Below, piece by piece: positions 5,571 through 54,189 of a DNA stretch of 64,000 nucleotides. This DNA is from Leucosporidium creatinivorum (lineage: Eukaryota > Basidiomycota > Microbotryomycetes > Leucosporidiales > Leucosporidiaceae): contig BCKL01000039.1 of the NCBI GenBank assembly GCA_001600635.1, positions 62,001 through 126,000 of the forward strand, read 5' to 3'. The position numbers and the translations under genes were made by a program. The notes beneath the pieces are model-generated. The model did no database searches and was not told where the DNA came from. It was given only the letters and a program-made list of their open reading frames with translations. How positions within the stretch are numbered: position 1 is the first letter of the stretch; every line of letters begins with the position of its first letter.

Positions 5571-6941
5571 TCAGAGCTTCTTGTTTTTAGCCAACGACTC
5601 TGTCTCCTCCCAGGCGCGTGAGGCTCGCGACCCAGGCTTGCGAGGCGAGCTGACTAGTAAAGGATCCGGGCTGGACGGAGATGCACCGCGCTTCTTCTGG
5701 AGAGGCTCACTGATTTCGAACGCCTTTATATCAAGCTCTCGGTCAGTGGAGGCCAGCGGTCGAAATGGCGGTAACTCACAAAGGAAGCCTGGCTCGCGCG
5801 AGGCAGGGAGAGGCTCTTGAACTTCCTAGGCATGCGAGCCACGAGCACGGCGCCCTCCCTGGTAGCAGCGTCTTTCCCCTCCAATTCCTTGACGCGGGCG
5901 CGAAGGGTTTCGACCTCTGCTTCAGCTTCGTCGCGAGCCTTCTCAGCCGCGGCGCGGCCCTGCTCGGCGTTGGCGCGACCCGTCTCAGCCTCCTTGCGAG
6001 CGCGATCCATCTCACGACATCCAGGCTTGTGAGTAGCGATGATGTCGGCGGAACCGATGGTGGTGCAGCCTTGGATGCGGCAGCTTAGGAGCTCGAGGAC
6101 AGCTCGGCGCCCCTGCCGCGATCAAGAAATTGAGCTCACGAGTGCTGCTGGCAGGCGTGGTAGTGGTCGCTCCAGTCTTTCGAGAGGTAAACGCCGAGAC
6201 CTTCTCCACCGCAGTCCCTGCCGCCGCGAGGGCACTCCTTCTCGTTGTAGAGGCAGTCGTCGTCGAGGTGCGCTTGGAGGTCGGCGATGGACACGAGCGA
6301 GGTGCAGCCGGCTTCGAGCTTGGGGCAGGCGCGAGGAAAGTGGTTGCACTGTGGAGGGCGATGGATGAGTGACCGAGCCTTTGAGGGAGAAGCGAGACGA
6401 CTCACGGCCGAGTCGAGATGAGAAGCCAGTTCCGAGTACTCGCCCGTCCAGTCGCAGCCTTCCTGCGAGCACTTGCACCTACAGCAGAGCCCCCGGGTTA
6501 GCTCTACTTCCCTTCCACTACCCCCACCGAGCTCTCCCACTCACTTCAGCGACTTGACCATGCGGCTCAACATCGGCGACTCGATGACCTCCTTGCACTC
6601 GACGCGGCAAGTGGGGCAGCTCGGGTCTTTGGCACACCATGCTTTGAGGCATACAGAGCAGGCGGAATGCTGTTCGATGCACGAGAAAGCTCCGGCGTTG
6701 AGGACGTCGTGGCAGACTGACGGCGATGAGATCAGCTATCGCCGGCTGCATCGTCCAAAGAGGAGCACCGGTCGCTCACTGGAGCATATGAGGTGTTCAC
6801 TGACGCCCTGAGGGAACAGGTCGGTCCAGATACCCGGCACTGCGAGAGACCAAGCGCTCAGCATCGGCTCGTCTTGATCTCCAAAGCGCGCTCTCGCTGC
6901 AGCAGAGAGGTGCAGAGCAGCGGGTGGGCTTGGAGCTCACT
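5571..6941 (-). CDS. RING + TRAF-type zinc-finger protein, paralog A
   Basis: This is a probable E3 ubiquitin ligase of the local nine-member family. The start codon is split. The A is at 6941, an intron covers 6840-6940, and TG is at 6839-6838. Exon 2 reads MPGIWTDLFPQGVSEHLICS. The RING follows with VCHDVLNAGAFSCIEQHSAC, then SVCLKAWC and CPTCRVECKEV (C3HC4). Next come a zinc-finger exon, CKCSQEGCDWTGEYSELASH, and CNHFPRACPKLEAGCTSLVS. The family signature CPRGGRDCGGEGLGVYLSKD and HYHACQQHS lead to a C-terminal coiled coil rich in A/E/R (TGRANAEQGRAAAEKARDEA). The last exon is basic and ends ESLAKNKKL at 5571. No MATH/TRAF-C domain is present. Ubiquitin-ligase activity is inferred from the RING only. 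Substrates are unknown. Confidence 0.8.
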
Positions 6942-7517
6942 CTTGAACGCCTGTTGCTACTGTTTGAGTCGCTGACGAAGCGTTCAGCCGAGTCGAAGCA
7001 ACGACAGGTGAGCGACAGAAGGAGAGAGGCAAGTCGGCTTTCGAGCAGCTCGACCACTTGAGCGAGTGGAAGGCTCGAGCGTGATGTGGAACTGCGCTCG
7101 AGCTGGCTCGTGTACAGGGAGCGTGAGAGGCTCTGAGATGTATCATGTTGTCGGAAGCAAGCTCGTCCCACTCTGAACTGCTGAACCCCTCGACCGAAGC
7201 TCGGCGCACCGTTTGCTCAGCCGCCTGCTCGTGGCTGCACCATCTTAGAGGTCTCTGGCTTTGGTTGTAAGACTAATAAGGTACTTCAAGTACCCGGCTA
7301 TTGTCGTGAAACGCCAATCAAACTTCTTCAGAGGGCGCAGACGGCACCGAAAGGATCGCCCCGCAGGGCCAGGTGGACGCCTTCGCCGCCTATTTCCAGG
7401 GCTCGAGCTGAGGCAATCATGTCGACAGTCACATTACGCACATAGATGCTCAAGCGGTACAGGTAGACCTCGCTCTTCTCCTCCTCGACCGGCTCTCCCT
7501 CCCCACCGAGCACTCCT
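6942..7517. other. Leader and promoter of paralog A; 3' flank of paralog B
   Basis: On the minus strand this stretch holds the 5' leader of paralog A, including a motif close to TCGTTGCTTCGACTCG that recurs in front of the other paralogs. It also holds a 30-bp promoter element at 7181-7210. From about 7000 onward the sequence is repeated at 31.1 kb with few changes. I see no separate gene. Confidence 0.6.
7181..7210 (-). promoter_or_regulatory. 30-bp conserved upstream element of paralog A
   Basis: Read on the minus strand it begins GGTGCGCCGAGCTTCGGT and matches 19775-19804, upstream of paralog D, at about 27 of 30 positions. Both copies end about 240 bp before the A of the split start codon. 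A third copy, at 31295-31324, has no gene A downstream. Confidence 0.6.
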
Positions 7518-8663
7518 TCAACCTCCCCTCCTGCGCTTCATCGCCCTCGTAGCGACGCCTTCCTGTTCAGTCTCGCGAAGAGCAGCAACGCTGGCCGTCA
7601 ACTGAGCGTCGAGCGCCTCGACGCGCTCACGAATCCTGAGGACCACCTCCTCGGCGGCGTCCCTCGCCTTCTCGGCCTTGACGAGCTTCGAGTGCTGCTC
7701 CTCGCAGCCTTCTCGGTGAAGGCTGAGGACGTGGGTGGAGGCGACAGTGGTACAGCCTGGCGTAGCGCAACTGTGGGTCGAGAAGGCCGGCTGTCAGCCG
7801 CAGCGACAGCTCGGCGTCGGCGAGGAGAGCAGATAGAGCCAAAGAAGACTCACACGTGCTTCTCGCAAACAGCGGCGTGCGCTTGACGATCCTTGACGAA
7901 GTAGGTACCACAGCCTCCGCAATCGTCTCCGCCGCGAGGGCAGCTCTCAGTGACCCAGCCGCACTCGGCAAGATGGGCGTCGAGCTCGGCGTCGCGAAGG
8001 GAGGCGTTGCAGCCGTGCTGAGTGTTGGGCCAGGGCTTGAGGCGGTAGGTGCACTTTCAGAGGGGGAGTGGGTGAGCATCTGTAGACCGAGAGACAAGAC
8101 AGACGAGCGAGAGCCGCTGACCGAGTTGGTGTGCGCTCGGCGCTCGGCGTACTCTCCCTCCCAGTCGCACTCCTTGTACGTGCAGATGACTCTGCCGAAA
8201 GGTGATGAAAGCGTCAGCTTCTATGCCTCCTCTCTCAGCCTCTCCGTTCCCTCCTTCTTCCCCTCCAAGCTCCATCCAACTCACTGAAGCTCGCGCACCA
8301 TCCTGTTGAGCAGCTTGACCTCCTTCAGGTTGACTCCTGGAACCTTCTCACGACAGGTGGGGCAGCTTTTCTTGTTGGCGAACCACTTCTTGAGGCACCT
8401 CGAGCAGCAGGCGTGGTCCTCCGAGCATCCGCTAAGTGTTGCCGAGCTGAGGGCGTCTTGACATACTGTAGAAGAGCAGGTGAGCATCCCGAACAGCTAC
8501 AGAGAGTCGTGCAGTGCTACGTACTAGCACAGATGAGGCTCTTGGGTACAGCAAACACGAAGAGATCGGCTGAGATGCCCACTGCGCGAGAGGGAGAGCG
8601 TGTGAGGGTCAGCTGCTGTAGTAGAACGGGGTTGGAGGTGCAGGGCAGCCAGTGTAGCTCACT
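7518..8663 (-). CDS. RING + TRAF-type zinc-finger protein, paralog B
   Basis: This gene is the near twin of paralog B' at 31632-32771. The start codon is split: A at 8663, intron 8582-8662, TG at 8581-8580. The protein opens MGISADLFVFAVPKSLICA and the RING continues ICQDALSSATLSGCSEDHAC, CSRCLKKWFANKKSCPTCRE. Then come VICTYKECDWEGEYAERRAH, CTYRLKPWPNTQHGCNASLR, LDAHLAECGWVTES and the signature CPRGGDDCGGCGTYFVKDRQ with HAAVCEKHS. A last zinc knuckle, CATPGCTTVASTHVLSLHRE, leads into a coiled coil (VKAEKARDAAEEVVLRIRER) and a basic tail MKRRRGG. Every intron position that I could place matches the other paralogs; one falls inside the first RING Cys pair (CA^IC). Role as an E3 ligase is inferred. 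Confidence 0.85.
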
Positions 8664-11335
8664 GGTAATGTCTAGTGAGCTTTTGGGGTAGCTGCCGAGC
8701 CGAACGAGCGAGTCGACGCGAAGACGAGTGAGCGGGAGGAACGAAAGCGGGGAGCGACTCAAGCGGGTCATCTTCGAGTGAGAGGAAGCTGCGCCGAGCG
8801 ACTCCTCGGGTCGAGTTAGACGTTTTGAGCTCAAAACGAGACATCTGATGTAATATCTGACCTAGTCCGAACCTCGCTCGCTGCTTTCAGTCCTCGCCCT
8901 CGCCGGCTGTGAAGTTTGGCTCGACTTCGCACGGTCGCTCTCCTCTGAGACGGGGTGTAGCCAGATGCACTCTTTTCGAGAAGACAGCTCTATACTACTG
9001 AGATCCAGCTGAACATCGTGCACCGTCTTGATGACCTTGCTCGGCGCGAGATGCGCTCCGAAACCTATCGCCGAAGGAGCGGGAGAGGGTCAGCAGTCGC
9101 TTGTGAAGAGCAAGGCTACGAGGGGAAGGGAGAGGGACCTGCTGGAGTTAGATAGATCTGTCTGGTTCAGCCGCCTTCACCTGCTACATCGAGCCAGCAA
9201 GAGCAGCTCAGCTACCCTCACTCGGCGCGAGTAGGCTTTGTCGGCGCTGCCTCAAGACGCCTCTGCACCACAGCACCTGCCGATTCGTGCACATGGCACT
9301 TTGAGCTACACGAGTTCGATATGCGCGCTGTTCAGAAAACGTCGAGCTTTCTGGGCTGACCGCCGAGCTCGACCTCTTACTTTTAGCCAGCAGCTCGAGT
9401 CGGGGCCTCTCCAACTCGACCTTCTAGCCCTCCCAGTGTAGTAGACAGGACAGGACGAACCTGGGTAGTTCAAGACCGGCCGATATGGTTCAAGGTGTAG
9501 AAAGTTGACTAGCAGCACCTCAGCACCACCAGCCTTTGCTCTCATCAGAACTGCTCGGCGCTCATCTTTCCCGATCTCGCGCGCCTAACGCAAGGTCACT
9601 GCTGAGATGTTGGGCCTATCCGACACACTCTCGATCAGGAAAGACTGCCAGCGCAGGTGGAAGCCAGCTCATGCGCGCACCAGGCTCCGGCTCCATTCGG
9701 CGCCGAGCACTGCCGACGAGACTAAGAGGGAGAGGGAGAGACGCCGAGGCCCAGCGGAAGCAGAGAGCGGAGCAGCGCTCTTGCGCCGCTTTGACTTGTG
9801 CTTGCGGGATCTGTCGTCCTCTTGCTGCTGACCTGACGACCCTCACGGCGCTCGGGGATCAGTCGGGCTGACCTTCTGCAGGCTCAGCACGAGCATGTCC
9901 GTCGCGCTCAACATATCAAACACTGTGGGATATTTTTCAGACTCTCGATGAGCCTTGGAGTCACGACGGAAGCCATCGATCGAGCGAAAGAGCCAGCGCC
10001 GAGCTGACCCTACACGCCGAACAGCCGTCGGGTTGACTTCCACATCCGTGAACGCTCGTAGAGATGAGTGGCGTCAGGACCCTAGCACACTGTAAACCAG
10101 AAGAGGGGCGCAAGATCTACAGCAGCGACAAGGCGAACCTCTCCGCCAAGAAGGGAGAGCTTCATCGCAGGCCACGCGCTCTGCTCCTCGTTTTCGAGGC
10201 TAGGCGACTTCAAGAGAGGGCCGAGGTAACTTGAATGAGGCGTGACTTGGACGCGAGTAGCTACTGTGCTTTGCGTCGAGCCCGCAAACCCCTTCACCGC
10301 TCGAGGAGCGAGACCTCGACAGGCAGGTGGAGTCGGCGCCGCTCCTTCCTGCAGATCCACAGCGGGGACATCAGCTCAGCTCTAGTCCTCGCCCTCTGTT
10401 TAAAAGAATGCAGCGAGGAGTTGGCTGGGCAACAGCGAGAAGTCTAGCCAGCGCCGAGCGCCAGCCCGCGTTGCTCGCTTAGCGACTCAGTCCCATCCCC
10501 AGAATCTCTGAAGCGGACTGAGATCTGGTCTCTGCTGTTTTCCAAGAACCGCTCTCGACAGCGACACCACACCAGAGCAAGCAACCCACCGAGCCACCCA
10601 CCCTCGGCGCCGAGTTGAGCGAGAGCGGCTCCCCCACAGCCCAGACATTGCGGAGCCGAGCGCGGCTTTGCATACAATCCTATCTGGTTCTAAGCGATGC
10701 TCACGAGCTCACCAGCAGCCTCAGCGAGACCACCGACCAACTCACTCGAAGCCGCTCCGCCGCCGAGCTCGGTGTCGTGCGCTTTCGGTCGCCGACGTGT
10801 GCTTAGTCAAAAAGCTGGATTTACGGAGATAGAGAGACATCTTCGTCCCGAACAACACGTAGACTAGCAGCCCTCGCCGAGCTGCCAATCTCACGCGCTC
10901 CTCGCTGAAGCCTGATGCTGCAGCACGCGCGGTATCGACAGCCAGGATCACTGACAGCCCATCAAATCGCTCAAGCAGATCGCCCAGCCACGCCCTCCTT
11001 ACGAGAGCAAAAAGCTGCAGCGACGAGAGCGAGGCGACGGCCGACTTGAGATGAAGCGTTCGAAGCGAGCAGGTAAGAGGGCAGGAGGTGCAGGACCGTA
11101 GACCGGGCTGTAGGGCAGTAAGGAAGCAGTCTGTTAGTGGTGTACGAGTCGCGACGAGGAGCCAAGGCGAAACGAGTGAAAGGCAAGAGATCGAAAGCGG
11201 TCCGAGCTCGCTCGCCTGTCTTTGTCCCCGACGGCTCACTTCGGGCCCAGCTCAGGCAGTCGTCGCTTGCCCGGAAGACCCATGAAGCCGAACTCAAGGT
11301 TTTTGGTCCTCCAACTACGCTCAGTGCCCTCTGCT
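8664..11335. other. 2.7-kb gene-poor stretch upstream of paralog B
   Basis: The first 250 bp hold the 5' leader and promoter of paralog B (minus strand), including an 18-bp palindrome at 8821-8838. The rest has no open frame with family resemblance or consistent splice signals. Most of it recurs, diverged and with indels, at 32.8-35.2 kb. It holds several CGCCGAG motifs, including one perfect CTCGGCGCCGAG at 10603-10614. It may contain a decayed gene, but I cannot name one. Confidence 0.6.
8821..8838. promoter_or_regulatory. 18-bp perfect palindrome upstream of paralog B
   Basis: CGTTTTGAGCTCAAAACG is its own reverse complement. It lies about 160 bp before the A of the split start codon. It is preserved exactly at 32932-32949 in the duplicate. 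A dimeric regulator site is one possibility; this is inference only. Confidence 0.45.
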
Positions 11336-12635
11336 TCACTTCTCCTGCTTGATCTTCTTCACCGAATCGGGCGCCGAGGCAGCTCGGGAGGTAGCCGGAC
11401 GCTGAAGGTGCAAGGTCTCAGCTTGAAAAAGCGCTCGAAGCCTGTTGTGTACCAAGCGCGAATGCCACGGCCGCTGACGACTCACCTTGAGACTAAACTC
11501 TTCCGCCGACGTTGCGAAAGGGTTGCCGCTCTGCCCCTTCGGAGCAAGGGAGACATTGTCCTTCTCTACAGCTGTAGGAGCCTTCCCAGCAGCCACTGAA
11601 CGGGTCTTGAGCCGCTGCATCTCAGCTTTCACCACGGAGAGAGCAGTCTCGGAGCTGATGAGCGCAGCATGAAGGAGGTCGCAGCCCACCTTGTGGGCGA
11701 CGAGGAGGGCGGGGCTGCCGGATGTGGTACAGCGTGAGTTCTGACATCTGCGAGGCCGAGCCATGTGAGCTTCAGAAGCTGAAAATTTGAGAGGTCCGAG
11801 AAATCTCGGCGCTCGGCGATAGCTCACTTATGCTTGAGGCAGACCTCGGCGTGCGTCCCCCCGTCCTTCCGGTAGTATACTCCTTCATCCCTCCTCTCAC
11901 AGTGCTTCCCGCCACGAGGGCAGATCTCCTTCTCGTAAGGGCAGACCTGAGCGTGGCGCTTGTGCTCGAGCACTTTCCGAGCCACTCCAGTCGTGCAGCC
12001 CAGCGTGTGGTTCCAGCAAGGCATAAGCACTTCGGGACACTGGAAGCAATTAAGATCGATAAGCTGAAAAAGGCGAGTGTCGCGCAAAAGAGAGAGGCTC
12101 ACCGACTTGTCGTGCGCTCTCAACTCCGAGACCTCACCTTGCCATTCACAGCCCCGCTCAGCCCGTGAGCATCTGCACCTGCTCGAGGAGAGTCAATGAG
12201 GCTCATAGTCACCCCAGGATGGTCTCAGACATACTTGAGCGACCCCACCAGCCTTCCCAGCATAGCCGACTCCCTCACGCCCGGGCCCTTCGAGCCGATC
12301 CTCTCTCGACAAGTAGGGCAGTTTCTGCCTTGCGGCATGCTTAACCAGTCGCTCAAACAGGGACGACAGAATGCGTGCTCGCTGGAACAGCAGACGACGG
12401 GGGAGGAGAGCACTTCGGTGCAGACTGGGGTGCAGAAGAAGCGAAGGGTTAGTGAGCGCCGAGAGGAGAGGGGAAGGGAACGTACTGCTACACATAAGGT
12501 GCTCGGAGATGGGAGAAGTGATCATATCGGACGTGTATCTTCGAGAGCGAGCCACTGCGAATCGAGAGGATCAGTTGTCGCTCACGGCTCGCGCGGGAGG
12601 GAAGAGCAACGAGCTCCGAAGAAGAGTCACTCACT
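11336..12635 (-). CDS. RING + TRAF-type zinc-finger protein, paralog H
   Basis: This is a third minus-strand member. The start codon is split: A at 12635, intron 12555-12634, TG at 12554-12553. The protein opens MARSRRYTSDMITSPISEHL, a longer N-terminus than its relatives. The RING reads VCTEVLSSPVVCCSSEHAFC, RPCLSDWL, CPTCRERIGSKGPGV. The finger region has CEWQGEVSELRAHDKS, CPEVLMPCWNHTLGCTTGVA and CPYEKEICPRGGKHCERRDE, then GVYYRKDGGTHAEVCLKHK. Here the second half of the signature is HCERR instead of DCGG. Next are CQNSRCTTSGSPALLVAHKV and a helical segment (LISSETALSVVKAEMQRLKT). The last exon is basic and ends APDSVKKIKQEK. Family membership is clear, biochemical role inferred. Confidence 0.82.
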
Positions 12636-12884: not shown

Positions 12885-15321
12885 TCATGTGCTCTCCCCT
12901 GCCTCCTCCTTCCCCTCCCGCCCTCCATCCTTCGCCCGCTCCTCCTTCTCCCTCCCCTTTCCTGCGCCGCCAACTTCCCACCGCCTCACCACCCTCGGCA
13001 CCACCCCCCTACTGCCCCTCTTCACCATCCCCGCTCCATCCTCGCCCTCCCACCGCTCGTAGAAAAGCAGGACCGGGTTGGCGCGAAGCACTTCGGAGAG
13101 TGACGAGGGCGAGACCGTCTCGTCCGAAATGCGGTACCATTCTGGTTGTCGTTGCAGTTGATGTTGGTCGGGTGGTGAAGGAGAGGGAGCGGGAGAGGGT
13201 GGTGGTGGAGACGGAAATGAGGAGCAAGGGCGAGATGATGGTAGCCGGCGGAAAGCGACGTAATGCCCAAAATGATGGCTCCCATAATGGACGACGAGGG
13301 AAGCCAACCGGTAGACATCGTTGCCCGCTGCTGTCTCCTCCCCCTCAGCGGCTCCGGCGGAGGAAGGAGAAGGAGGAGGTGGATGATCGCCGAATGCACC
13401 TAGGTCGAGGAACTCGGGAAAAGTGACCTGACAAGTATTCTTGTAGGCGCCCGAGGTGGAGTAGTATGTCGAGCGGGAGAGGTGGATCGGGAGGATGGAG
13501 GGGGTCTGTTGAATGTCACGATGTCGGCGAGCGAGGCGAGCGGCGAAGGGGAGGGGGAGGGGGAGGGGGGAGGGGGGGATGGGGGGTCAGTTCGGCTCTG
13601 CGCGCGCAGCGAGAGCAAAGCGTAGCGAGGAGAAGAGAGGAAGACCCACCCTCGCAAACCTAACCACCTTGCCCGCCGCTCCCTCGACCCGTTCCACCTT
13701 GCCAGCGCCGTCGAACTCCTTGCCCAACTCCTTCTCCCAATCCCCCGCTTGGACGACCGCCTCCAACCGATCGACCAGCTTTTGCGTCTTGCGAAGGCGG
13801 TCCTTGCGGGAGGGGGTCATGCTGGGCGAGGAAGAGGCGGGAGAAGGAGGGGTGAAGTGGTTGGAGCTGGAGATGGAAGGGAGGGAGGAGCGGGTGGGGG
13901 TGGAGGAGCGGGAGGCGGAAGCGCGCGCGGTGGGTGGTGCTGCTGGTGACGTCGATGGTCCTGCGGGTTCGAAGCAGGAGGAGGACGAGGAAGAAGAAGG
14001 ACCCAAAGCCAGTCGGTCCCTCTGCCCGACAAGCTTGTCCAGCGTGGCGAGGACGGAGCATTTCCTGCATGCGTAGTCGGAGAGGAGGTCCATTTTGGTA
14101 TGCTCGGCGAGGAGGGCGGAGAGGGAGATTTGGGCCTGCGTTCGAGGGGAGGGGAAGGGGGGTGAGCGACGCCGAGCGAGATGGAGGTAAGAGAGAAGGG
14201 AAACGTACGGCGTGCGGAACGTCCAGCATGACTTGTTGATCTGACGTGTGTCGCACGTCGCGTGTGTAGTTGCAAGTCATGCACCTCACTCGTTGGGACG
14301 TAAGAAGGAGGTACGGGTCCCTGAGTTCCGCCCCTCCGTCGTCCATCTGCCTCTCCACTTCGGGTTTGCTCTCCTCCACATCGCTCGCAACCCCACCCTC
14401 ACCACCCACCAGCCGCAGCACCTCAGCCAATCCCCTCTTCCTCTCCTCCTCCCTCGCCAACTTGCCCAACACCCTCCCCTCCTCCTCCTCCACCGCCTCG
14501 CGGATCATCCCCCACAACTCATGCGCATCCTGCTGCTCGCTGCTGCTCATGAGTCGTCGTCTTTGGTCTGAGGAGTGGGCGAGGGCGGTTGCCAGAGCTA
14601 TGGGCCGTAAGGGGGAGGGACGAGGGGAGGGGGTGTTGAGAGCACCGAGAACGAGAAGGAGGGAGGTGGTCACGGGTGTGGGGAGGGCGGGGGTGGAGAG
14701 GGAAGAGAGTTGGGTGAGGTAGGTGAGCAGAGGAGGGAGGGAGGCCATGGACTATGGTGCAGCAGGGGGGGGGAGTCAGTTCGGCGTTGGTGCTAGGCCA
14801 CAAAGGGACGCCGAGTGAAAGGAGGAGCGTACTTGGAGAGTAGCGTTGAGGTAGCAGAGGTTGCCGGAGACGTTGAGGAGACCGGGGTAGAGCTCTAGTC
14901 CTATGGTACAGAAGAGCGAGCCGAGAACGAATGGACGACGAGGTGGGGGTGTCAGTGAAGCGCGATGGTCAGGTCGGAGCTCGGGGCAAAGCACAGAGGA
15001 AGACTCACCAGAGCTAGTAGCGCTCGACTGGTTGGTACTAGCTGGCTGCTGGCCCTTACCTTGCAGTGCCTCCCCATGCACTTTAGTCCAGTCGACCTTT
15101 GCCAATCCTTGCAGCCCGACGGATTCTGCCAAGGAGGACAACTTGAAAGCAGCCATTTCCTGTATCCCTACAAGGGATTGTAGTGGTGCGAAGGGAGTCC
15201 AGCCGAGGGAGTAGAGCGAGAGAGCGACGAGAGCGACGAGGACGAGTGCGGTGGCTGTTGGTGAGATTGAAGGAGGAGGAGGAGGTGTAGGATGATAGTA
15301 AGCGGTAGAGGAGTAGGGCAT
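12885..15321 (-). CDS. Ubiquitin carboxyl-terminal hydrolase (USP family), membrane-anchored
   Basis: This is a cysteine deubiquitinase of the USP/UBP class. Near the N-terminus a hydrophobic helix, ATALVLVALVALSLYSLGW, suggests a membrane anchor, as in fungal Ubp16 and animal USP30. The Cys box reads GLLNVSGNLCYLNATLQ. It has one extra residue before GN and a leucine where most USPs have threonine. SSEQQDAHELWGMI is the QQDAHE motif. RVRCMTCNYTRDVRHTSDQQ and YACRKCSVLATLD supply CxxC zinc-binding pairs. After a C-rich intron come ILPIHLSRSTYYSTSGAYKN and the His box LVVHYGSHHFGHYVAF. LFYERWEG is the usual last motif. Several Ser/Pro/Arg-rich linkers enlarge it. The two catalytic boxes are present, so activity is plausible. 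It is divergent from Ran, with 293 bp between the starts. Confidence 0.88.
13547..13587 (+). other. G-run tract inside a deubiquitinase intron
   Basis: The plus strand carries seven or more runs of four to seven G separated by single A or AT. The tract lies in an intron of the minus-strand USP gene, where it reads as the C-rich polypyrimidine part between a CTGAC branch site and the acceptor. The plus strand could fold as a G-quadruplex. Confidence 0.6.
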
Positions 15322-18357: not shown

Positions 18358-19476
18358 AGTAAGTCATCTCGGCGTTCCCCCTTTCTCCTCCGTCGAGGCA
18401 GGACTTGACGGACTTGCTCCCTCTGCAGTGGGTATCTCGACCGACCGATTTGTTCAGGACATCCCCGAGCATTTGATCTGCGCCAGTGCGTGTGCCAGTG
18501 ACCTTCCAGCAGCCCCAAGCTGACCCCGAGACTCGTTTTCGCAGTCTGCCAAGACGTTCTTGAGCGCGCCACCCTCTCTGGTTGTGCTGAGGCTCACTGT
18601 TTCTGCTCCGCGTGTATTGGGAAATGGTTGGAGGAGAACGAGACGTGCCCTACCTGTAGGCAGGTTACCGATGAGGATATTGCGACGCCCATTCGCCTGC
18701 TCGACCGAATGATCGCCGAGTTGAGGTAAGCCGCGTTGAATCCAAGGGTGTACTTTATTCGGGCGGTAGAGAATCAAGAGCTCAGATTATACCATTCTCC
18801 TACCTAGCGTCGAGTGCCCATATGTGGCGGAATGTGGGTGGGAGGGACAGAACTCGGACTTCGACGATCACGTCGCTTCGGTGAGCTCCTTGAACCCCTT
18901 CTTCAGCTCTCTAGGACCCCTTGGAGCTCACACTCGCTTTGTTCACAGTGCGACGAACGTTCCATCCCCTGCCCCAACACCAACAAGGGCTGCGACCACA
19001 CGGACACGGTCGCTTGGATGGGGCATCATGAGTTCAGCTGTCTTTGGGGAACGGACTGTTGTCCTCGTGGCGGAGCGGATTGTGGAGGAGAAGGAGAAGG
19101 TATATACCTCAGGAAGGACCAAGAAGTGCACTGGGATGACTGCGAGGAGCACCAGTACGTTTACGAGTCCGACTCTCTTCCGTGACCTAGCTTCGCACTC
19201 TAACCTTGGCGCTCTCGTTGCAGGTGCCCGAACCGCGGATGCACAACTGTCGGATTTGACTGGCTCATCAAGGACCACAGGAAAGGCTGTGATAATATGT
19301 GGTGGGAGCTTAAGCTCGCCCGAGCCGAGATCCAGAAGCTCAAACGGGAGAGGGCTGCGATGAGAAAGGGAGAAGTGGTAGAGGTGGAGAAGGAGAGTAA
19401 AAACTTGAAGAGTAAGAAGAGGTGGACGAAGAGGAACAAGGAGAAGAGGAAGCAGGAGAAGGCGGCTCAGGCTTGA
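18358..19476 (+). CDS. RING + TRAF-type zinc-finger protein, paralog C
   Basis: The first member of the plus-strand trio. The start codon is split: A at 18358, intron 18359-18428, TG at 18429. The protein begins MGISTDRFVQDIPEHLICA. The RING is ICQDVLERATLSGCAEAHCF, CSACIGKWLEENETCPTCRQ. Then come VECPYVAECGWEGQNSDFDD, CDERSIPCPNTNKGCDHTDT, and DCCPRGGADCGGEGEGIYLR with KDQEVHWDDCEEHQ. CPNRGCTTVGFDWLIKDHRK precedes a helical, very basic tail of alternating K/E/R (LKSKKRWTKRNKEKRKQEKA) that could act as a nuclear localisation signal. A stop just upstream of the leader A supports the split start. E3 ligase role inferred. Confidence 0.85.
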
Positions 19477-20044: not shown

Positions 20045-21318
20045 AGTAAGCCGGCTCGCCGCCCCTACCTACCCCGCCAGCTCGAGACGCGTCGCTAACA
20101 GCCAACTCTCGCTCTTCTCGTCGCCGCTCTACAGTGGGAATTCCAGTCGAGCTGTTCGTTGATTCTGTGCCCCAACACTTGATCTGTAGCAGTACGCAGC
20201 GCGCTTACTTTCGTTCAACTCATGACGCGCGCTGACCTCTCTCTTTCAGTCTGCCAGCTCATCCTTGAGCGAGGGACGCTCTCGGGATGCTCAGAGGACC
20301 ATCCTTTTTGCTTGCAGTGTGTCAGGACGTCGGTCCGTCAACGAGCGACCTGTCCGACGTGCCTTCAGCCTACAAGCAGGACGCGACTGAGGGAGAGCCA
20401 GCTCTTGCGCCGCGAGGTCGGTTCTTTGAGGTGAGCAGGAGTCGGTGGGTCCAGGACGAAGACAGACAGAGCTAACGCTCCGCTGTTGTAGGGCGAGGTG
20501 CTCGGAGGACCAGTGTGATTGGCAGGGCGACTACTCGGAGCTTCAAGCTCATCTCGACTCGACCGTGAGCCCTCTCGCTCCACTCAAAGGCTACTCAATC
20601 GCTCACCTGTAACCTCGGATCTACAGTGCAGCTTTCACCCTCGCCCTTGCCGGAAATCGACCCTGTCAAGTCCTTGTCTCGGCGCTGCAGCTGTTCGAGC
20701 ATCTCGACATCACCTGCGCCTACACCATCTACGGCTGCTCACGAGGTGGCGAACATTGCGGAGGGTTCGAGAAAGGTCGTTTCACTCGAGGAGCAGGCGA
20801 GGCTGCTCATGATGTTGTCTGCGAGGCGTATCGGTGAGTTCATCGGTCGAGGCGATCGCCGAGCTTTGCTAACTAAGGTCGTTGCGCCACAGCTGCCCCA
20901 ACATGAACTGCACTACCGTCGGCAGCCTTCGCGTCCAGCAAGCGCACGCTCCCGGATGCGCAAGGACGGTCCAATACGCCCTCGACTTGCATCACTCGGT
21001 CCAAGCGCTCAAGAACGAGCTGGCTCAAGCTCGACAGCACATTGCCGCTTTGGAAGCTTCCAACCGTCGGGACTCTTCTCCTTGTCCGACTGGTGGGCTT
21101 GGGATGGACTGGGCGAGCAAGGGCGTGAGGGTGGGTCGTCCTTGGGCTCTCTCGGCTCGGCGAGCTTCGCTGACCTCCTCCATTGGCAGGCTAGGCTTCC
21201 TTCAACCAGCGCCGTCGCCAGAGCCCCGATGGATGATCGCAGTAACGACCATGTAGGCGCTGGGACATATGGAGCAGGTCCGCCGGTCGATGATTCGGCG
21301 CAAGTGCTTCCTCGGTGA
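20045..21318 (+). CDS. RING + TRAF-type zinc-finger protein, paralog D
   Basis: The start codon is split: A at 20045, intron 20046-20134, TG at 20135. The protein begins MGIPVELFVDSVPQHLICS. The RING is ICQLILERGTLSGCSEDHPF, CLQCVRTSVRQRATCPTCLQ. The next exons give CSEDQCDWQGDYSELQAHLD and CSFHPRPC. In place of CPRGG this member has GCSRGGEHCGGFEKGRFTRG, so the first cysteine context has changed. CPNMNCTTVGSLRVQQAHAP follows, then a coiled coil (LHHSVQALKNELAQARQHIA). A last intron with donor GTGAGG after ASKG and a CTGACC branch joins to ARLPSTSAVARAPMDDRSND, ending at 21318. Reading through that intron would instead end at 21256. The finger region is the most diverged of the trio. Confidence 0.78.
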
Positions 21319-21732: not shown

Positions 21733-22865
21733 AGTGAGTCCTGCACCCTCTCAGAGCCCCTGCTCGACTTGAGCTGACACTCGCACGACCTCTTTTCTCG
21801 CAGTGGGCATCGACCTCGAAAGCTTCGTCGGCTCGGTTCCCGACCACCTTGTCTGCGCCAGTGAGCCGGCCCCTACTCCCGCTCTCTGAAAGATCGACCG
21901 AGCTGAGCAGGCTCTTTCGACAGTCTGCCGAGACGTTCTCGAGCAAGCGACGCTGTCGGGATGCCCAATGGACCACGCCTTCTGCTCGCCATGCCTACAG
22001 AACGCCATCGCTACCGACCAGAGGTGTCCTACGTGTCGTGCACCTGTCACCCAAGCCAGCCAGAGGAAAGTCAAGCTGCTCGACCGAGCGATTGAAGCGT
22101 TGAGGTGAGTTGATGAGTTGAAGCCATCGTCTGAGATGGAGTGAGGAGCTTCAGTCGAGTGCTGGCGGCTCTGACACCCCTTCTCGACCTCGTATAGCGC
22201 CAAGTGCACCAACGAAGGCTGCTCGTGGAGTGGAGAGCATTCATCGCTCGGTGTTCATCGCGCCTCCGTCAGTCGTCGATGTGCTCCTCAGCCGGCTCTG
22301 TGCGTCGCTAACGTAGAAAACTTCTACAGTGCAGATACCGCAAGGTACCTTGCTCCAACGCTCTGCACGGCTGCGTCGCCTCGCCCACCTACGCCAAGCT
22401 CGGCAAGCACCTCAAGTCGTGTCCTCGTGCGCGCCAGACTTGTCCTCGCGGTGGAGCTGATTGCGGCGGAGTTGGAAAAGGGGGTTACTTCCTGGGCGGC
22501 GAGAAGCAGCATGCGCAAGTCTGCACCAAACACGCGCAAGTCTCCCTTTCTCCTTCTCCCTTCTTGCGCTCGGCGCATCGTCGCTGACCCGCAGCCCCCT
22601 CCGCAGCTGTACGGCGACTCTTTGCACCACCAATGGGACTCTCGCAACTCTCACCATCCACCGACCCGGATGCCAAGAGCAGGAGAAGGCGAGGACGACC
22701 GCCGAGGCCGAGGTCAAGAGGCTCAAGGAGAAGATGGCGAGGGGCAAGAGGGAGCTCGAGGATGAGGTCCAGGTGGACGGGCCGGTGTTGGGCAGCTCGA
22801 GTCAGAACAAGAGGGTTAGGCACACGCTGGCTGTGTTGGGCTATGGAGGCTCCTGCTTCAGGTAG
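21733..22865 (+). CDS. RING + TRAF-type zinc-finger protein, paralog E
   Basis: The start codon is split: A at 21733, intron 21734-21803, TG at 21804. The protein begins MGIDLESFVGSVPDHLVCA. The RING is ICRDVLEQATLSGCPMDHAF, CSPCLQNAIATDQRCPTCRA, an intact C3HC4. The fingers are CTNEGCSWSGEHSSLGVHRA, CRYRKVPCSNALHGCVASPT, then RQTCPRGGADCGGVGKGGYF, EKQHAQVCTKHA and CTTNGTLATLTIHRPGCQEQ. A coiled coil (EKARTTAEAEVKRLKEKMAR) precedes a short tail ending GYGGSCFR. The intron between LVCA and ICRD lies at the same point as in the other members. Function inferred from the RING. Confidence 0.85.
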
Positions 22866-31631: not shown

Positions 31632-32771
31632 TCAACCTCCCCTCCTGCGCTTCATCGCCCTCGTAGCGACCCCATCCTGCTCAGTCTCGCGAAGAGCAGC
31701 AACGCTGGCCGTCAACTGAGCGTCGAGCGCCTCGACGCGCTCACGAAGCTTGAGGACCACCTCCTCGGCGGCGTCCCTCGCCTTCTCGGCCTTGACGAGC
31801 TTCGAGTGCTGCTCCTCGCAGCCTTCTCGGTGAAGGCTGAGGACGTGGGTGGAGGCGACAGTGGTACAGCCTGGCGTAGCGCAACTGTGGGTCGAGAAGG
31901 CCAGCTGTTAGCGACAGCTCGGCGTCGGCGAGGGGAGCAGGTGGAGCCAGATACGACTCACACGTGCTTCTCGCAAACAGCGGCGTGCGCTTGACGATCC
32001 TTGACGAAGTACGTACCACAGCCTCCGCAATCGTCTCCGCCGCGAGGGCAGCTCTCGATGACCCAGCCGCACTCGGCAAGATGGGCGTCGAGCTCGGCGT
32101 TGCGAAGGGAGGCGTTGCAGCCGTGCTGAGTGTTGGGGCAGGGCTTGGGGCGGTAGGTGCACTTTCAGAGGGGGAGTGGGTGAGCATCTGTAGACCGAGA
32201 GACAAGACAGACGAGCGAGAGCCGCTGACCGAGTTGGTGTGCGCTCGGCGCTCGGCGTACTCTCCCTCCCAGTCGCACTCCTTGTACGTGCACATGACTC
32301 TGCCGAAAGGTGATGAAAGCGTCAGCTTCTATGCCTCCTCTCTCAGCCTCTCCGTCCCCTCCTTCTTCCCCTCCAAGCTCCGTCCAACTCACTGAAGCTC
32401 GCGCACCATCCTGTTGAGCAGCTTGACCTCCTTCAGGTTGACTCCTGGAACCTTCTCACGACAGGTGGGACAGCTTTTCTTGTTGGCGAACCACTTCTTG
32501 AGGCACCTAGAGCAGCAGGCGTGGTCCTCCGAGCATCCGCTAAGTGTTGCCGAGCTGAGAGCATCGTGGCATACTGTAATAGAGCAGGTGAGCGTCCTGA
32601 TTGACTACAGAGAGTCGTGCAGTGTTATGTACTAGCACAGATGAGGCTCTTGGGTACAGCGAACACGAAGAGATCGGTCGAGATGCCCACTGCGCGAGAG
32701 GGAGAGCGTGTGAGGGTCAGCTGCTGTAGTAGAACGGGCTCGGAGGTGCAGGGCAGCCAGTGTAGCTCACT
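31632..32771 (-). CDS. RING + TRAF-type zinc-finger protein, paralog B'
   Basis: The duplicate of paralog B. The start codon is split: A at 32771, intron 32690-32770, TG at 32689-32688. The first exon reads MGISTDLFVFAVPKSLICA. The RING, finger exon CTYKECDWEGEYAERRAHTN, signature CPRGGDDCGGCGTYFVKDRQ, last finger CATPGCTTVASTHVLSLHRE and tail MKRRRGG are all preserved. Coding differences from B are few. The introns differ more, for example a short deletion and several substitutions in the intron after CEKH. No break in the reading frame was seen, so both copies look usable. This excess of intron over exon change suggests selection on the protein. Confidence 0.85.
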
Positions 32772-41257: not shown

Positions 41258-41480
41258 CATTGTCGCCAACCCGTCGACAAACAGACTCAACACTCTCATT
41301 GGCAGTCGGAGGAAGAGGGAGCGAACGAGCAGCCGAGCTTTGGTGGGAAGATTGGGCGTGCGGAGGAGGAGGAAGAGGAGGAGGAGGGGGAGGAGTTGGT
41401 CAAGGGTCAGGCGGGTGGATTTGCTGCTGCTGGACGACGTGGCGGCGCGCTGCTTCCCTTCGACCCGATCCCCACTCTTA
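41258..41480. pseudogene. Fragment of the Sec14-like gene C-terminus
   Basis: The plus strand here follows 23264-23470 closely, from AACAGACTCA-C-ACTCTCAT through GGCGCGCTG-TTCCCTTCGAC to CCGATCCCCACTCT. On the minus strand that part of the Sec14-like gene encodes LRLPMRVLSLFVDGLATML. Substitutions and small indels are scattered through it. No upstream or downstream exon of the gene is present, so this is a dispersed fragment and not a working gene. Confidence 0.8.
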
Positions 41481-41559: not shown

Positions 41560-43480
41560 AATGAGCTGAGGCTACTCGACCCGCACGCAGATGAGAGTGG
41601 ACAGCCACCCTCTCACAGCTGAGCGCTTCTGTGACTTAGCCACAAGCTTGCTCTGTGCTGAAGCGGGAGGCTGACCTCGCTCGGCGAAGGAACGAAGTCA
41701 AAGCAGGTATCCGGTCGACTCCATCGAGGGCTGAAGCCTCATAGCGTCCCCATCTTTGTAATAGCTTCGATTACGGCTGTTCCGACTTTGCTGCGACGCC
41801 CGCTCCACCCTTCTCGGCGAGAAGAACAGAAGCGAGGGAAGTGCCAGGTCGCGCCGCCTGCTGAGGTCGGCGCTCCGGTGAGTCGCAAGAATGTCAACAA
41901 GGCATGGAGGAGGTGATCCGTCGCGAGGCGCACGGGTGAGCAGCCTCAGCCATCGCCACGACCGACGAGAGCCGAGCACTGCGTCGCGATGCTCCGAGAC
42001 GACGAACAGCTTCCCTCTTGCAGCAGCCAGCTGAGCGGCGCAGGAGAGGGCAAAAAGAGAGGCGGACCCTCCATACTGGTCGCAGCGCCTGCTCCCGTCT
42101 CGCTTGTCGAGGACGGAAGCCCAGCGCAAAGAACGGCCCGCGCGAGTCCAGCTCCGAACAGCCAGCAATGACCTGAAACCAAGCACGACCTGCGCGGCAG
42201 TCTAGAAGCGCTGCGATCTCAAGACTACCAAGACAGTGCACTCGCTCACAGCATGGCTGAGAGTGACGCGACTGAGAGGCTGAGACGAGAGCTGCTTGGA
42301 CTGTGAGGCAAGGGCACTACGAAACGGCGGTAAGCGTATACCTCCGCCAGTTCTCGGCAGTAGCACAGCGTTTTAAGGGGCAACGTCGTTCCGCTCGCTC
42401 AATCGCCGGCTCCCTCTCGCCGAGACGAGGGAGAAGCAAGCGAAATACGAGACGACCAAGCCGCCAACGACCCCGTCCTGGGTCTCTGCTTCAGTATCTG
42501 CTTCAGTGAAGCATGCGGCAGAGGTACAGACAGACGAGGAGTGTTCCCCAACATGAAGCAAGCGCTCCCCACCTAGCGAAAGCTGAGCAAGGCGGCGCCA
42601 GCTGGTCGAAGCGAGGTCGCCCGTCCAATCCTGCAACAGCTGCTCCTCAACATGAAGCAGCATGTGCGAGGCTCACGATCATAGCCATAGCTCCCATATC
42701 GTATCAGCCATCCCGCGCGTCCCTTTGACGAGGATACATTCGAGGACGGCCAAGAAGCGACCAAGAGCCAGCGCCGATTTCTATTCAGCTTGAGCGCTGA
42801 GAAAAGGACGCCAAGTGCGGGCTACACCATAGCAAGCTACTACTCAAGAAGGAGAACGTCAGCCTCACCCACCACTGGCAGAAGAAGCTCGGCGCTCAAG
42901 AGGGAGCTCAGCTGCAATCGGCCGCAGCGCTGGTTCGGCAATCCCATACAAACAAGCAGTATCTTCGAAGGCGTATTTACGGTGTGTTCCCTCACAGCTT
43001 GGCTGCGAAAGAGCAACAACGACAAGCGAGTCCGAGAGCTGCTCGGCGCTGGGAAAGCCGAGTGGGAAGGCGATCCGCCGACGGAGGGACAGCTTTGCAG
43101 GCTCACACTACTGGGGCGTGTAATCTGCCAGTGGACCAAGCGCATCGCCACATTCATCTCTCACTCGGAAAGATGAAGGACGGCGAAGTAGTCGGAGCCG
43201 AGGCAGGCGCACGCTCGGCTGAGGGCAGGGAGCGGCAACAGAGCTCCACCTTCTCTGTGAGGACATCGAGCAGTAGAGTAGGTTCTAAACCTCATGGGAC
43301 ACTGCAGCGAGCCCTCCCCGCCCAGCTGCTGCTGCACGAGAGAAGCGCCTGCTCTGCCTCTTCAGCTCGGCTCGACGAAGAGCTCGATCCAGCCCGGCTG
43401 AGAGCATTGCAAAGCTCTGTGTCATCAACACTCGTCACGAACACCACCCACGCCCGCCACAGCTTCACTGCAGCGAGCGC
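41560..43480 (+). repeat. Unclassified 1.9-kb repeat, copy 1 (inverted partner 56.6-58.4 kb)
   Basis: Block-by-block similarity to the reverse complement of 56600-58400 was read by eye. Markers are GCGGGAGGCTGACCTCGCTC, CTCCGAGACGACGAACAG, CTCCGAACAGCCAGCAA, GCTCACAGCATGGCTGAGAG, CAAGAGGGAGCTCAGCTGCA, GCGAGTCCGAGAGC and CCCTCCCCGCCCAGCTGCTG. One shared ATG opens MAESDAT-RLRRELL in both. Neither copy keeps a long frame. I see no transposase, reverse transcriptase or clear terminal repeats. It is either a decayed gene family or a non-autonomous element. Confidence 0.7.
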
Positions 43481-44397
43481 GAACGGATCGAGCGGCGCGA
43501 GAGACGCCCTGCCGCTGCTCTGTGGCCCTTCAGGCGTTCTGCACCAGCACACCTAGCGACCAAGGGACCACAGCACACGCATTATACACTCACCTGCTCC
43601 CTGCTACTCTTATACTGCACTCTCGACTTCCCAGCTCCCCCAACGAGTCTCCACCTCACCTCGCCACACTCTGCGCTCTGAGTCGTGGGGAGGGGTCCTG
43701 CGGTCTAGTCGAACGATTGGCGGTATGCTTGGCTGACTATGAGGTGGGGGGTGCTGCAAAGAGAGGCGAGGAGGGGCGGGGAATGAGGCCAAGAGCGAGG
43801 GGAGGGGGAAGGCGGTGAGGCTGAGAGAGCGAGAAGAAGTCGATGCGGTGGTGTCGGGGGAAGGGCATCGAGGGGTCGTCGACGATCTCGTCGAGCTGAG
43901 GCGAAGCGACGAGACGAAAAACGACGACGAAGAAGGAGGAGCGAGAGAGCGAGAAGCGAAAGCTGGCGAGCTGCGAGGGGGTCGAGTGTGAGGTGCAGCA
44001 TCTCCGGTCAAGGCTAGAGTCGAATGTCACCGCTACTATTACCCAGCTTGCTGCTGACCCTCGAGCCCCTCCTCAATCGAGCTTCGCCACGCCCCTTGAC
44101 CTTCGCCGAGCGGCGCTCGAGGGGGAGCTGTAGCGTATGAGGTCAATTCCCAGCACCTCTGACTAGTTCAGCCGACTTGCTTCTGTAATCCTCAGCCCTA
44201 CGCAGTTTGATTGATCTTTCTAGCGCCTTCTCGAACTCACGACACGCTGCGCCGAATCCGAGCCATCGCCGAGTCGCTCTCTCCCTTCGATGAGCGCAGG
44301 TCAACAAGTCACAGCCCACTCGAGGACACCAAAGGTCCTATCCACCAGCTATCTACACCCCCCTCACCCTCTTCCCCTCCCTCCTCGATATTCAAGC

Positions 44398-48322: not shown

Positions 48323-48538
48323 GGGGAGACGACGAGGGCTTGCACAGAGGGATGCGATGGAGGAGGTAAGAGGTGTATTGCATTGTTTGCGCTTGAGCTT
48401 GAGCTGTGGTACAGAGAGAGCGAGAGTGAGCGCCGAGGGAGGGAAGAGAGCGGCTCGGCGCAGTTTTCGGCGCTGCTGCGAAGTCGATTGCTCGCAGCTC
48501 AAGGCCGGCTCGCTGCAGAAGATCAGACTCGGAGTACG

Positions 48539-51490: not shown

Positions 51491-52466
51491 CTATTCGAGT
51501 TTGGCTCCCATTTCCGAGCTCGTATCGCCGCTTCGTTCGAGCTGCTCGAAAAGTCGTTCCAGCTTCGACAATTGCTCGTCCGTCTTGAGTTGCTCGGCTT
51601 CGAGGTTGGCGACTCGGCGATAGACGTGCAAGCAGGTGGGTTGATGAGCTTGAATCAGGGCATTGGTACCGATGACCTTGCAGAGCTGGTAGTTGGCGCA
51701 TCTGCGGGCATGCAAGCATCAGCAAGGACGAGCAAAGCCGAGCTCGGCGATGGGCGGCGCACTTGTAGAACTGGCAGACTGCTTCATGGGCTGGCCAGGC
51801 TGCTCTAAGAATCGTGCCGCAGTTCTCGCGGCCTCTTCGGCAGATGACAGGTGCGCCTGGACAGTCGTTCTGTAAGTGAGCTCGCCAATCGCCGACATGA
51901 ACGAGGATTTGGCGGCCGACTTTGGCGCAATTGCTGCAGGGTCGAGGTGTGTACTCGCACTGTAGAGTCTGACATATGTAAGCGCTTGGCACTACCAGCT
52001 CTTATACTGGCTCTTTACCTCAAGCTGAACGTGGACGGCTCGGTTCTTGCAAGGGCCGACCGATTTGCAGTGGCCTTGGGCGCAGCGCACTCTGCGAGAG
52101 AGTACGGAGCAGTACACTCAGCTTCCCATACCTCGTACTGTCTATTAGTAGCGATCACGCACCTCAGCTCGCCCACACGCGCCCAAGTCGCCAAATTCCG
52201 CCTCACCAGCAGCCAGTCGACCTTGCTCAGACACAGCGGGCACTCCTGCAGCCTTTCCCGGGTCGCCTTGTCGACTATTGTGCACTTGTTGCAGAAGATG
52301 TGCCCTGGGCATAGCTCGAGGGGGTCGTCGAAAACTTCGAGGCAGACTGGAGGCGGGAACAGCGAACGATCAGCGGAAGCTCGAGCGCGAGGGCTACTGG
52401 ACGCTGGAGCTCACTGCTACACGTCAGCTCCACTGGTATTGGGTCAACGAAGATCGGACGAGCCAT
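51491..52466 (-). CDS. RING + zinc-finger protein, paralog F (diverged)
   Basis: A diverged family member. The start codon is whole (ATG at 52466): MARPIFVDPIPVELTCS. After the usual intron the RING reads ICLEVFDDPLELCPGHIFCN, KCTIVDKATRERLQECPLCL. Next are CAQGHCKSVGPCKNRAVHVQ and QCEYTPRPCSNCAKVGRQIL, then HVGDWRAHLQNDCPGAP. The CPRGG-CGG signature has become VICRRGRENCGTILRAAW. CANYQLCKVIGTNALIQAHQ and HQPTCLHVYRRVANLEAEQL follow, then a coiled coil (LKTDEQLSKLERLFEQLERS) to the stop at 51491. The intron positions I could place are as in the other members. It is divergent from paralog G with 329 bp between the starts, so the two may share a promoter. Confidence 0.8.
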
Positions 52467-52795
52467 CCTGAGTCCCTACGAGCGGTTGAAGCGAGAACGA
52501 GTGAGCGGAACGAAGGAAAGAGGCGCCCGCTTTCAAAAGCCGAGCTTGAGGTGCTCCGTCGTTTCGCTGAGCTGGACTGAAGAGGCTACAGCTCATCGTG
52601 CTGCTTGAACTGCACCGGCGAAGCCCTACTTGGCTACATAACCACTCCTTCGGCTGCTGAGGCGAAGCCCCTGACCGCTCCTCGAGGAGTTCCCACAGCG
52701 CCGTTCGTCTCTTGCTTTCCTAACACTCACTCGCCTCGCATCTCTCGACTCGCGCAGCCCACTACAGCAGCTTCAGCAAGCCGAACGACCTACAG
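52467..52795. promoter_or_regulatory. Divergent promoter of paralogs F and G
   Basis: A 329-bp spacer between two opposed ATGs. Both sides carry the family leader type: CACTCGTTCTCGCTTCAACC toward F and CACTCGCCTCGCATCTCTCG toward G. No gene lies within. Confidence 0.6.
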
Positions 52796-54189
52796 ATGCC
52801 GGAAATTGACCTCGCCCTCTTCACGAAGCCCGTCCCCGTCTCGCTTGTCTGCACAAGTCCGTCCTCCCTCGACTTTGCGTCTCGGATCAAGCTAACTCGT
52901 AGCCTACAGTCTGCACGAAGGTACTCAAAGAGCCTACCATCGTCTGCTCGGATCAACACGCTGTCTGCAAGTCCTGCGTTGAGCTCTGCGCTCCAAGCTC
53001 GGGCGGTGCTGCTGGCGATGGCTCGTTCAGGTGCCCGAGTTGTCGTGTGGAGTTCTGGGTGGGAGATGTTGAGCCTGCTATGGAGCTAGAAGTGATGATC
53101 GGAAATCTCGAGTGAGTGGTAGAAGGGAGGAAGAGGATCGCCGAGCTGAGCTAACCTTCGCCGAGCAGGGTGAGGTGCGCGGACGACGTCTGCTCGTGGA
53201 CTGGGATCTACTCCGAGTACAACACTCACTCGCGCTCTTCTGAGGTACGTCTGCTTGCTTGTGTCTTCCACCTTGTGAGACTCACCCCTCTTCTTCCCAG
53301 GGCGAATCGGCCTGCATCAACGCCGAGCACGGCTGTCTCTTTTCTACGACCTGCGCTTCGGCTCACGAGCAACACCTCGATTTCGAATGCGACTTTGTGA
53401 ACGAGCACTGCCCTCGGGGAGGGCCACATTGCGGTGGACCCGACGGAGAAGGGAGAGAGTGCTTCTGGCGAAGGGATGCGGAGGCGCACGACGAAGAGTG
53501 CTTGATGTGGCGGTGAGATTGGCTTCTGCTACGAGCGTACAGGAGTATAGCTGATCCGTGTTCGTCGCTCCACAGCTGCTCCAACCCCTCCTGCCCGACC
53601 TTCGGCTCGCTCTGGTCCCTCGACGAGCACGAGCCGTACTGCTCCTCGCTGCACTACCACCTCTCGGATCTCTCAAACTCCTTACAGCAATCGGAGGAGC
53701 AGCTGGCCCAGCAGGTCAACGAGCTCAACGCCGGGCACAAGACCTTCGAGTCGCTCACCGCGCAGCTCAACGCCGAGCGCGAGACGTCCGAATCGCTCAG
53801 CCAGCAGCTCATCGCCGAGAAGCAGACGGTCGCTAAGCTGCGCAAAGAGCTGGCGGGTCTCAACAAGGCGGTGAAGAGTTCAAAAGGCACTCAGAACAGC
53901 GCGCCCTCGCAGAAGACTCTGCGGCTCGAGCACTCCGCCGTCGAGGTTCGTACGTCTCATCTCGGCTCCGAGCCCTCGACTCACGGCCCAGTCACCATCT
54001 CGGGCAACTTCAATACCATCGTAAGCTCTTCTTCCCGATTTCGTAGCTCGCGGAAGCTGACTTCCTCACCGCTCGACGCAGAACGTCTACCTCTACCGAG
54101 ATGACTACGTCGACGAGAGCTCGGCCGAGGAGAGCGAAGGCGAGGCGCAGCCCGCGAAGCGCCGCAAGATCTCAGTCAATGTACAGTGA
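52796..54189 (+). CDS. RING + TRAF-type zinc-finger protein, paralog G
   Basis: The start codon is whole: ATG at 52796, directly after CCTACAG. The protein begins MPEIDLALFTKPVPVSLVCT. The RING is VCTKVLKEPTIVCSDQHAVC, KSCVELC, FRCPSCRVEFWVGDV. The fingers are CADDVCSWTGIYSEYNTHSR, ACINAEHGCLFSTTCASAHE, then NEHCPRGGPHCGGPDGEGRE, DAEAHDEECLMWR and CSNPSCPTFGSLWSLDEHEP. A long coiled coil follows with heptads built on repeats of QLNAERETSESLSQQ. Two extra C-terminal exons, unique in the family, give HGPVTISGNFNTI and NVYLYRDDYVDESSAEESEG. The end is basic, AKRRKISVNVQ, a likely nuclear signal. Family membership is clear; E3 role inferred. Confidence 0.85.

Follow-up and report, generated by a model that had tools for sequence, protein, structure and literature searches.

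Locally amplified TRAF-like proteins without a MATH domain, probable RING ubiquitin ligases, in the basidiomycete Leucosporidium creatinivorum

RING ubiquitin ligases with TRAF-type zinc fingers are known mainly from animals, where TRAF2, TRAF3, TRAF5 and TRAF6 share a plan of RING, TRAF-type fingers, coiled coil and MATH domain. A TRAF-like family of more than 40 predicted proteins, 16 of them with a RING, zinc fingers and a TRAF domain, is described together with TrafE from Dictyostelium (PMC11552500). The present analysis concerns a stretch of 64,000 nucleotides of Leucosporidium creatinivorum, contig BCKL01000039.1 (C39), positions 62001-126000 (hereafter the window), in a genome of 27.7 Mb and 63 contigs. 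The window carries nine genes that an earlier note, made from the sequence alone, had described as one RING and TRAF-type-finger family. They are probably part of a locally amplified set of TRAF-like RING ubiquitin ligases without a MATH domain, which would have evolved by birth and death in a fungus.

In the fungal proteins, as in TRAF6 and the animal TRAF2, TRAF3 and TRAF5, C-x-C-x-H-x3-C fingers come after a RING, and the last finger is followed by a heptad stretch; the colinear alignment with TRAF6 extends over about 155 positions. Unlike the animal proteins, those of the fungus are 238-367 amino acids long, 14 copies have a start codon divided by an intron, and no MATH/TRAF-C domain was found (E up to 0.5) in the seven window proteins scanned against Pfam, namely A, B', C, E, F, G and H (gene names as in Table 1). 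As the MATH domain was looked for and not found, we do not assign the proteins to the TRAF family proper. Small ligases of the SIAH/SINA and RNF125 types also combine a RING with Cys/His fingers, and the Sina_ZnF model matches five of the seven scanned proteins below its cut-off (best 24.2 bits against 32, in H); no SINA model passes its cut-off in them, and no SINA substrate-binding domain is among their matches. Finger number and spacing in these ligases differ from those of the cluster, and the matches to RNF125 in the PDB search described below are confined to approximately the RING and first finger. The vertebrate TRIM family seems to resemble the cluster in consisting of clustered RING ligases with a coiled coil that evolve by birth and death, with B-boxes instead of TRAF-type fingers. 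The nearest described amplification is that of Dictyostelium, in which RING and TRAF-type-finger proteins are likewise greatly amplified in a non-animal; its 16 listed members carry a TRAF domain, and the likeness is one of description (PMC11552500). No paper on an amplified fungal family of this kind was among the matches listed in the literature searched, which mostly excludes subscription papers, and the word 'traf' is absent from the main text of PMC4469406 and PMC12093110.

Among 5.8 billion predicted proteins, the full family profile found two distant TRAF-like matches, judged eukaryotic, the finger exon found none, and a relative from contig C7 (C7:779.5k) found one close match (71% over 78% of the query). 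This scarcity is weak evidence for the lineage-specific birth put forward in the earlier note, since introns are assumed to break most such protein predictions. If the copies are active, the family offers a natural test of how such ligases multiply without a MATH domain.

Extent of the cluster and gene structure

Gene models were built by reading the coding strand at the nine loci, listing open reading frames (ORFs) on both strands and splicing by hand. All nine loci of the earlier note were recovered as related genes, eight with intact frames and one, D, frameshifted. Exon 4 of D is 824 nt long and thus not divisible by three, and a scan with the spliced profile finds one frameshift; D is probably either a pseudogene or a sequence error. 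Identity to C is 26-42% among the intact window proteins, and all eight agree in 30 columns, which at such low identity excludes a chance resemblance. The introns are short (53-101 nt in the family) with phases 1,1,2,0,2, and their agreement in place, which had also been claimed, holds for position and phase alike, in D by frame-tolerant alignment. A, H and G have an extra final phase-0 intron, and F and G are missing the first.

The family was searched for in its own genome with C, B', A, G, F and two relatives as queries, followed by a spliced-profile scan of the fetched pieces; C39:4.5-62, 126-152.3, 155.5-168 and 176.6-192 kb and C49:7.2-56.4 kb were covered by protein searches only. At least 22 copies were found across about 277 kb, or 1% of the genome, on contigs C39, C49 and C7. 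The number is a lower bound, because H, D and E did not serve as queries and because of the parts covered by protein searches only. The last 3,006 bases of C39 are identical (100%) to C49:59991-56986 reversed, and C49:1-6410 is identical (100%) to C7:6410-1 reversed, so that the three contigs form one stretch. C39 carries 15 copies: Z at 1.8-2.6 kb, the nine window genes, I at 153.3 kb, J and K at 172.9-175.2 kb, and K' and J' at 193.4-195.7 kb. The other seven (L, M, N, O, P, Q and R) lie at 6.4-30 kb of C7, and a match at the end of C49 is J' again, not an extra copy. The figure of nine is therefore an effect of the window. The aligned core is open in 17 of the 22 copies. As assembled, four others are broken: D and N by a frameshift, L by two frameshifts close to N bases and R by a stop. 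Copy N is also without its 5' end, and Q falls in an N gap.

Relatives outside the cluster lie on C2 at 346, 368 and 408 kb, the last known from the search only, and a distant one lies at C7:779.5 kb. Of the C2 copies, the two that were modelled have three introns in common with the cluster (phases 2, 0, 2, in the same columns) and a different first intron. A relative on C22 (84.7 kb) is doubtful; it is listed only for its intron places (two exact, the third two columns off) and a CPRGG motif and scores 57 against 64 for the C4 match. Weak matches on C26, C6, C9 and C4 were not counted as family members.

Fourteen copies (A, B, B', H, C, D, E, J, K, L, M, O, P and R) begin with an ATG that is divided by the first intron. 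The donor of this intron follows an upstream A and its acceptor stands just before TG, so that the ATG is formed by splicing; J' and K' show the same arrangement. In 13 of the 14 there is no in-frame ATG upstream before a stop, the exception being B, with one at codon -36 that B' does not share. An uninterrupted ATG is found in F, G, I, Z, C2:346k and C7:779.5k, and the start region of Q falls in an N gap. The divided start codon follows a group of 16 rows on the family tree (support 80/90), which also includes N and the C22 relative, the latter on a very long branch. Such start codons are, to our knowledge, rare in general. As the start codon of this main subfamily exists only after splicing, retention of the intron would silence the protein, and the common intron makes regulation by splicing directly testable.

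Table 1. Members of the family in the window and the similarity tract around B (window coordinates; position 1 is C39:62001)
Feature	Coordinates	Strand	Description
gene A	5571..6941	-	323 amino acids; RING, four TRAF-type fingers, heptad stretch and basic tail; split start codon
gene B	7518..8663	-	253 amino acids; split start codon; Trp in place of a finger-2 Cys (profile column 112)
gene H	11336..12635	-	291 amino acids; split start codon
gene C	18358..19476	+	256 amino acids; split start codon; long basic tail
gene D	20045..21256	+	exon plan as in other members; exon 4 frameshifted; split start codon
gene E	21733..22865	+	257 amino acids; one GC-AG intron; split start codon
gene B'	31632..32771	-	253 amino acids; recent sister of B; split start codon
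gene F	51491..52466	-	238 amino acids; uninterrupted ATG; finger-2 Cys replaced by Arg; tail without basic run
gene G	52796..54189	+	367 amino acids; uninterrupted ATG; long heptad stretch, basic tail; divergent from F
B/B' tract	7000..9250		about 2-8% divergence per 250-bp bin; partner at about 31.1-33.36 kb

Age and turnover of the copies

The claim of a single family with a single architecture and local duplication is supported, and by sequence comparison most paralogues are old, with some duplication recent and some copies broken. That the copies are an old, conserved fungal TRAF-like family, merely co-located, each with orthologues elsewhere and none recently born, is possible, if on balance doubtful. 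The low identity of the window copies to C fits such a history, as do the saturation of synonymous change in most pairs, the three intron positions shared with the C2 relatives, and the tree, which leaves out Q, K', J' and C4 and on which the nine window genes do not fall together (6 changes, with 104 of 500 shuffles as low). Against it, the C7 copies are clustered (2 changes, 0 of 500 shuffles as low), and the clades B, B', E, C (82/68) and L, N, M, P, R with K (93/90) are recovered, strong support being found on 4 of 20 inner branches. Broken copies are present, B and B' separated recently, and the pairs J/J', K/K' and L/Q are identical over the codons compared.

These three identical pairs are among the 28 with the lowest non-synonymous divergence (dN). 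In the other 25 its ratio to synonymous divergence (dN/dS) is measurable and lies between 0.17 and 0.5, for example 0.17 in P/R, 0.46 in M/P, 0.36 in J/O, 0.29 in the C2 pair and 0.50 in A/J; some of the pairs include broken copies, and pairwise ratios of this kind are compatible with selection at single sites. For B/B' the ratio is 0.21 in the core and 0.26 over the whole coding sequence (dN 0.017, dS 0.067), and the five non-synonymous and two synonymous changes of the finger part (0.71) are too few to interpret. The diversifying use proposed in the earlier note thus finds no support in these ratios, nor in a comparison across the fingers: mean entropy of non-ligand columns is 2.18 in the RING and 2.17-2.28 in the fingers of 18 copies, so that the two are equally variable.

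Similarity along the copies is uneven. Beyond position 9250 the divergence between the surroundings of B and B' jumps sharply to about 18-33%, a step that points either to a conversion tract or to a second duplication on top of an older one. Downstream of B', window 31000-31420 is a copy of the sequence immediately upstream of gene A, without gene A, and marks where the B duplication ends. M and P are 81-85% alike in exon 1, in the RING exon and in the 350 bp upstream, and 72% alike in intron 1; past the RING, likeness is 52-70% in exons and introns, against shuffled backgrounds of 60-64%. M/R resembles this pattern (RING exon 74%) and P/R shows it less sharply; no split between a RING half and a finger half was seen in the other five of the eight pairs tested, A/J and J/O being most alike in exon 3. 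Since the split occurs only in M/P/R and the RING is no more conserved across the family, the shared RING half is a feature of this subgroup, not of the family. Copies would thus arise through local duplication, diverge and sometimes die, with partial homogenisation in tracts, as in B/B' and in the promoter-to-RING half of M/P/R.

It is somewhat unlikely that the count is partly an artefact of assembly, in which unresolved repeats or the presence of two haplotypes would have made J'/K' and Q out of J/K and L. C39:172715-176601, with J and K, and 191986-195879, with K' and J', are inverted arms 99.0% alike (39 mismatches in 3874), and the left arm begins where an N gap of 4.7 kb or more ends. 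On one side L and Q, the latter with an N gap, are 99.7% alike (5 mismatches in 1624). On their other side, however, the likeness is only 92% (33 mismatches in 410), and C49 ends within J' and runs perfectly into the end of C39, as expected for a real near-identical repeat that halts assembly. The nine window genes are not affected, B and B' differing at 20 codons.

Domain architecture and predicted ligase activity

Conservation was assessed on a spliced profile of 200 columns with 18 copies, which includes the broken D, L, N and R and excludes B', K', J', Q and the dispersed relatives. The short N-terminal box and the C3HC4 RING of the earlier note are both real in the spliced models and in this alignment. 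Of its 'three to four' fingers the fingers stand and the number is four, each a C-x4-6-C-x11-15-H-x3-C unit in profile columns after the RING. Each of the 24 Cys/His ligand columns is retained in 16-18 of the 18 copies. The RING ligands (columns 19, 22, 34, 38, 41, 44, 55 and 58) are kept in 17-18, the exceptions being N at columns 19 and 22 and R, with a stop at the last RING Cys (58). One finger ligand each is lost from the window genes B (Trp, finger 2), F (Arg, finger 2) and G (the last of finger 1); Z is also without the last finger-1 ligand, N has lost one ligand of finger 3, and the alignment of J stops short of the end of finger 4. The coiled coil that had been claimed may correspond to a heptad stretch after finger 4, present in all eight tails tested, and the basic tail corresponds to a basic run found in seven of the eight tails and lacking in F.

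Residues that face the ubiquitin-conjugating enzyme (E2) in RING ligases are an Ile and a Pro, and an Arg after the last RING Cys is the activating residue. The Ile is retained in 15 of the 18 copies, the Pro in all 18 and the Arg in 15. Pfam RING models score above cut-off in C, B', E and H; for related TRAF-like models there are matches under the cut-off in B', H and E. A search of PDB matched 168 distinct sequences at E 0.01, of which the 60 listed, mostly RING matches, are considered here. Among these only TRAF6 (5vo0; also 8hz2 and 3hcs) covers the RING and three fingers, 5vo0 matching query positions 14-169 with an E of 8e-15; matches to TRAF5 and RAG1 cover the RING and some of the fingers. 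The RING ligands, the E2-contact residues and the likeness to TRAF6 together support the earlier description of the proteins as probable E3 ligases.

Several observations weigh against locally amplified TRAF-like ligases. The RING models fall below cut-off in A, F and G, and zf-TRAF matches only C, A and B' (3/7), always below cut-off (best 23.3 against 27), with no TRAF-type finger match in F or G. When the genome was searched with zf-TRAF, the model matched just two loci, C4:1037k and C7:779.7k, both outside the cluster, and no copy within it. The best-scoring PDB match is not TRAF6 but a RING2-BMI1 chimera, through its two RINGs. The heptad signals are modest, 2-51 of 300 shuffles being equally good, and the test itself excludes stretches containing proline. 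Finally, part of the copy number (J'/K' and L/Q) adjoins N gaps and could reflect duplication in the assembly.

Zinc-finger nucleic-acid or scaffold proteins without ligase activity, whose RING would have a structural role and whose fingers and basic tail would bind DNA or RNA, are a distinctly unlikely alternative. The basic runs would suit such a role, and so would the inclusion of the DNA-linked Rad18 and RAG1 among the listed PDB matches and the match of the NCBIfam rad18 model to six of eight proteins, although its score in the one table listed, 32.9, is far below the cut-off of 175. F has Leu for the Arg after the last RING Cys, and the low RING scores of A, F and G point the same way. 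The retention of the E2-facing Ile and Pro argues for a ligase, as does the identity of the match that spans the RING and three fingers, TRAF6 being itself a ligase.

With TRAF-like ligases as the preferred reading, we infer from the relationship to TRAF6 and the conserved RING residues that the proteins act as ligases, form oligomers and bind substrate through the fingers or the tail. The RING would bind a ubiquitin-loaded E2 through the Ile, Pro and Arg, and the fingers would steady the RING-E2 complex, bind substrate, or both. The heptad stretch may form dimers or trimers, and the basic tail could confer nuclear location or contact with nucleic acid. That the cluster is a fungal recognition repertoire, in which one chemistry serves many targets (self/non-self, viral or transposon proteins) and is renewed by local duplication, the M/P/R subgroup by joining a shared promoter-and-RING half to diverging finger halves, and the main subfamily under one splicing switch (the start codon made by removal of intron 1), is very improbable, as conservation is no higher in the RING than in the fingers and the split pattern occurs in only three of the eight pairs tested.

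Neighbouring genes and repeats

Ten neighbouring single ORFs were scanned, and six pass a Pfam cut-off (SNO, Ras, protein kinase, UCH protease, RhoGEF and RTA1); one has an RFC-like AAA match below cut-off, and three, including the ORF taken for CAF1, have no Pfam match. The earlier note placed the family between single-copy housekeeping genes (Ran, CAF1, Cdc7, RFC3); single-copy status fails for the flanking SNO gene. This pyridoxal-phosphate synthase glutaminase (window 1607-3113) has a second copy, 92% identical, at the left end of C39 (L060:1-1508), adjoining Z. A ubiquitin-specific protease (Pfam UCH, 3e-19, at window 12888-13586) is encoded on the minus strand at about 12.9-15.3 kb, between H and C; the presence of a deubiquitinase among ligases may be chance.

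Two genomic contexts were rejected for the cluster. Linkage to mating type, judged within contigs only, is not seen, as the STE3 pheromone receptor (E 1e-30) lies on C25, off the cluster contigs. A subtelomeric position is not indicated either, TTAGGG x3 occurring only at the ends of C2, C6, C15, C42 and C63 (C63 provisional); the backward control pattern also gives five matches, so that the place and not the number of these repeats is informative. The receptor, the TTAGGG arrays at contig ends and the short introns of the family are all consistent with a fungal genome.

A block of 2 kb occurs twice in the window in inverted orientation (41596-43608 and 56429-58456; 69% identity, with 87-91% at 42.1-42.3 kb) and elsewhere leaves only traces, at C39:176.4-177.1 kb. 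It was rejected as a gene, having no codon periodicity (187/167/191 mismatches by phase; 17 of 79 gaps divisible by three), and contains one open stretch of 115 amino acids on the minus strand, 65% alike between copies. It was also rejected as an RNA, with no Rfam match and no clear fold signal in four pieces (z -1.64 to 0.36). A 222-bp fragment is found at 23250-23468, in a minus-strand open frame, and with 86% identity at 41256-41477, adjoining this block. Finally, window 60340-63162 consists of two adjacent similar stretches (67-79% in parts), the second of which encodes the RTA1-like membrane protein.

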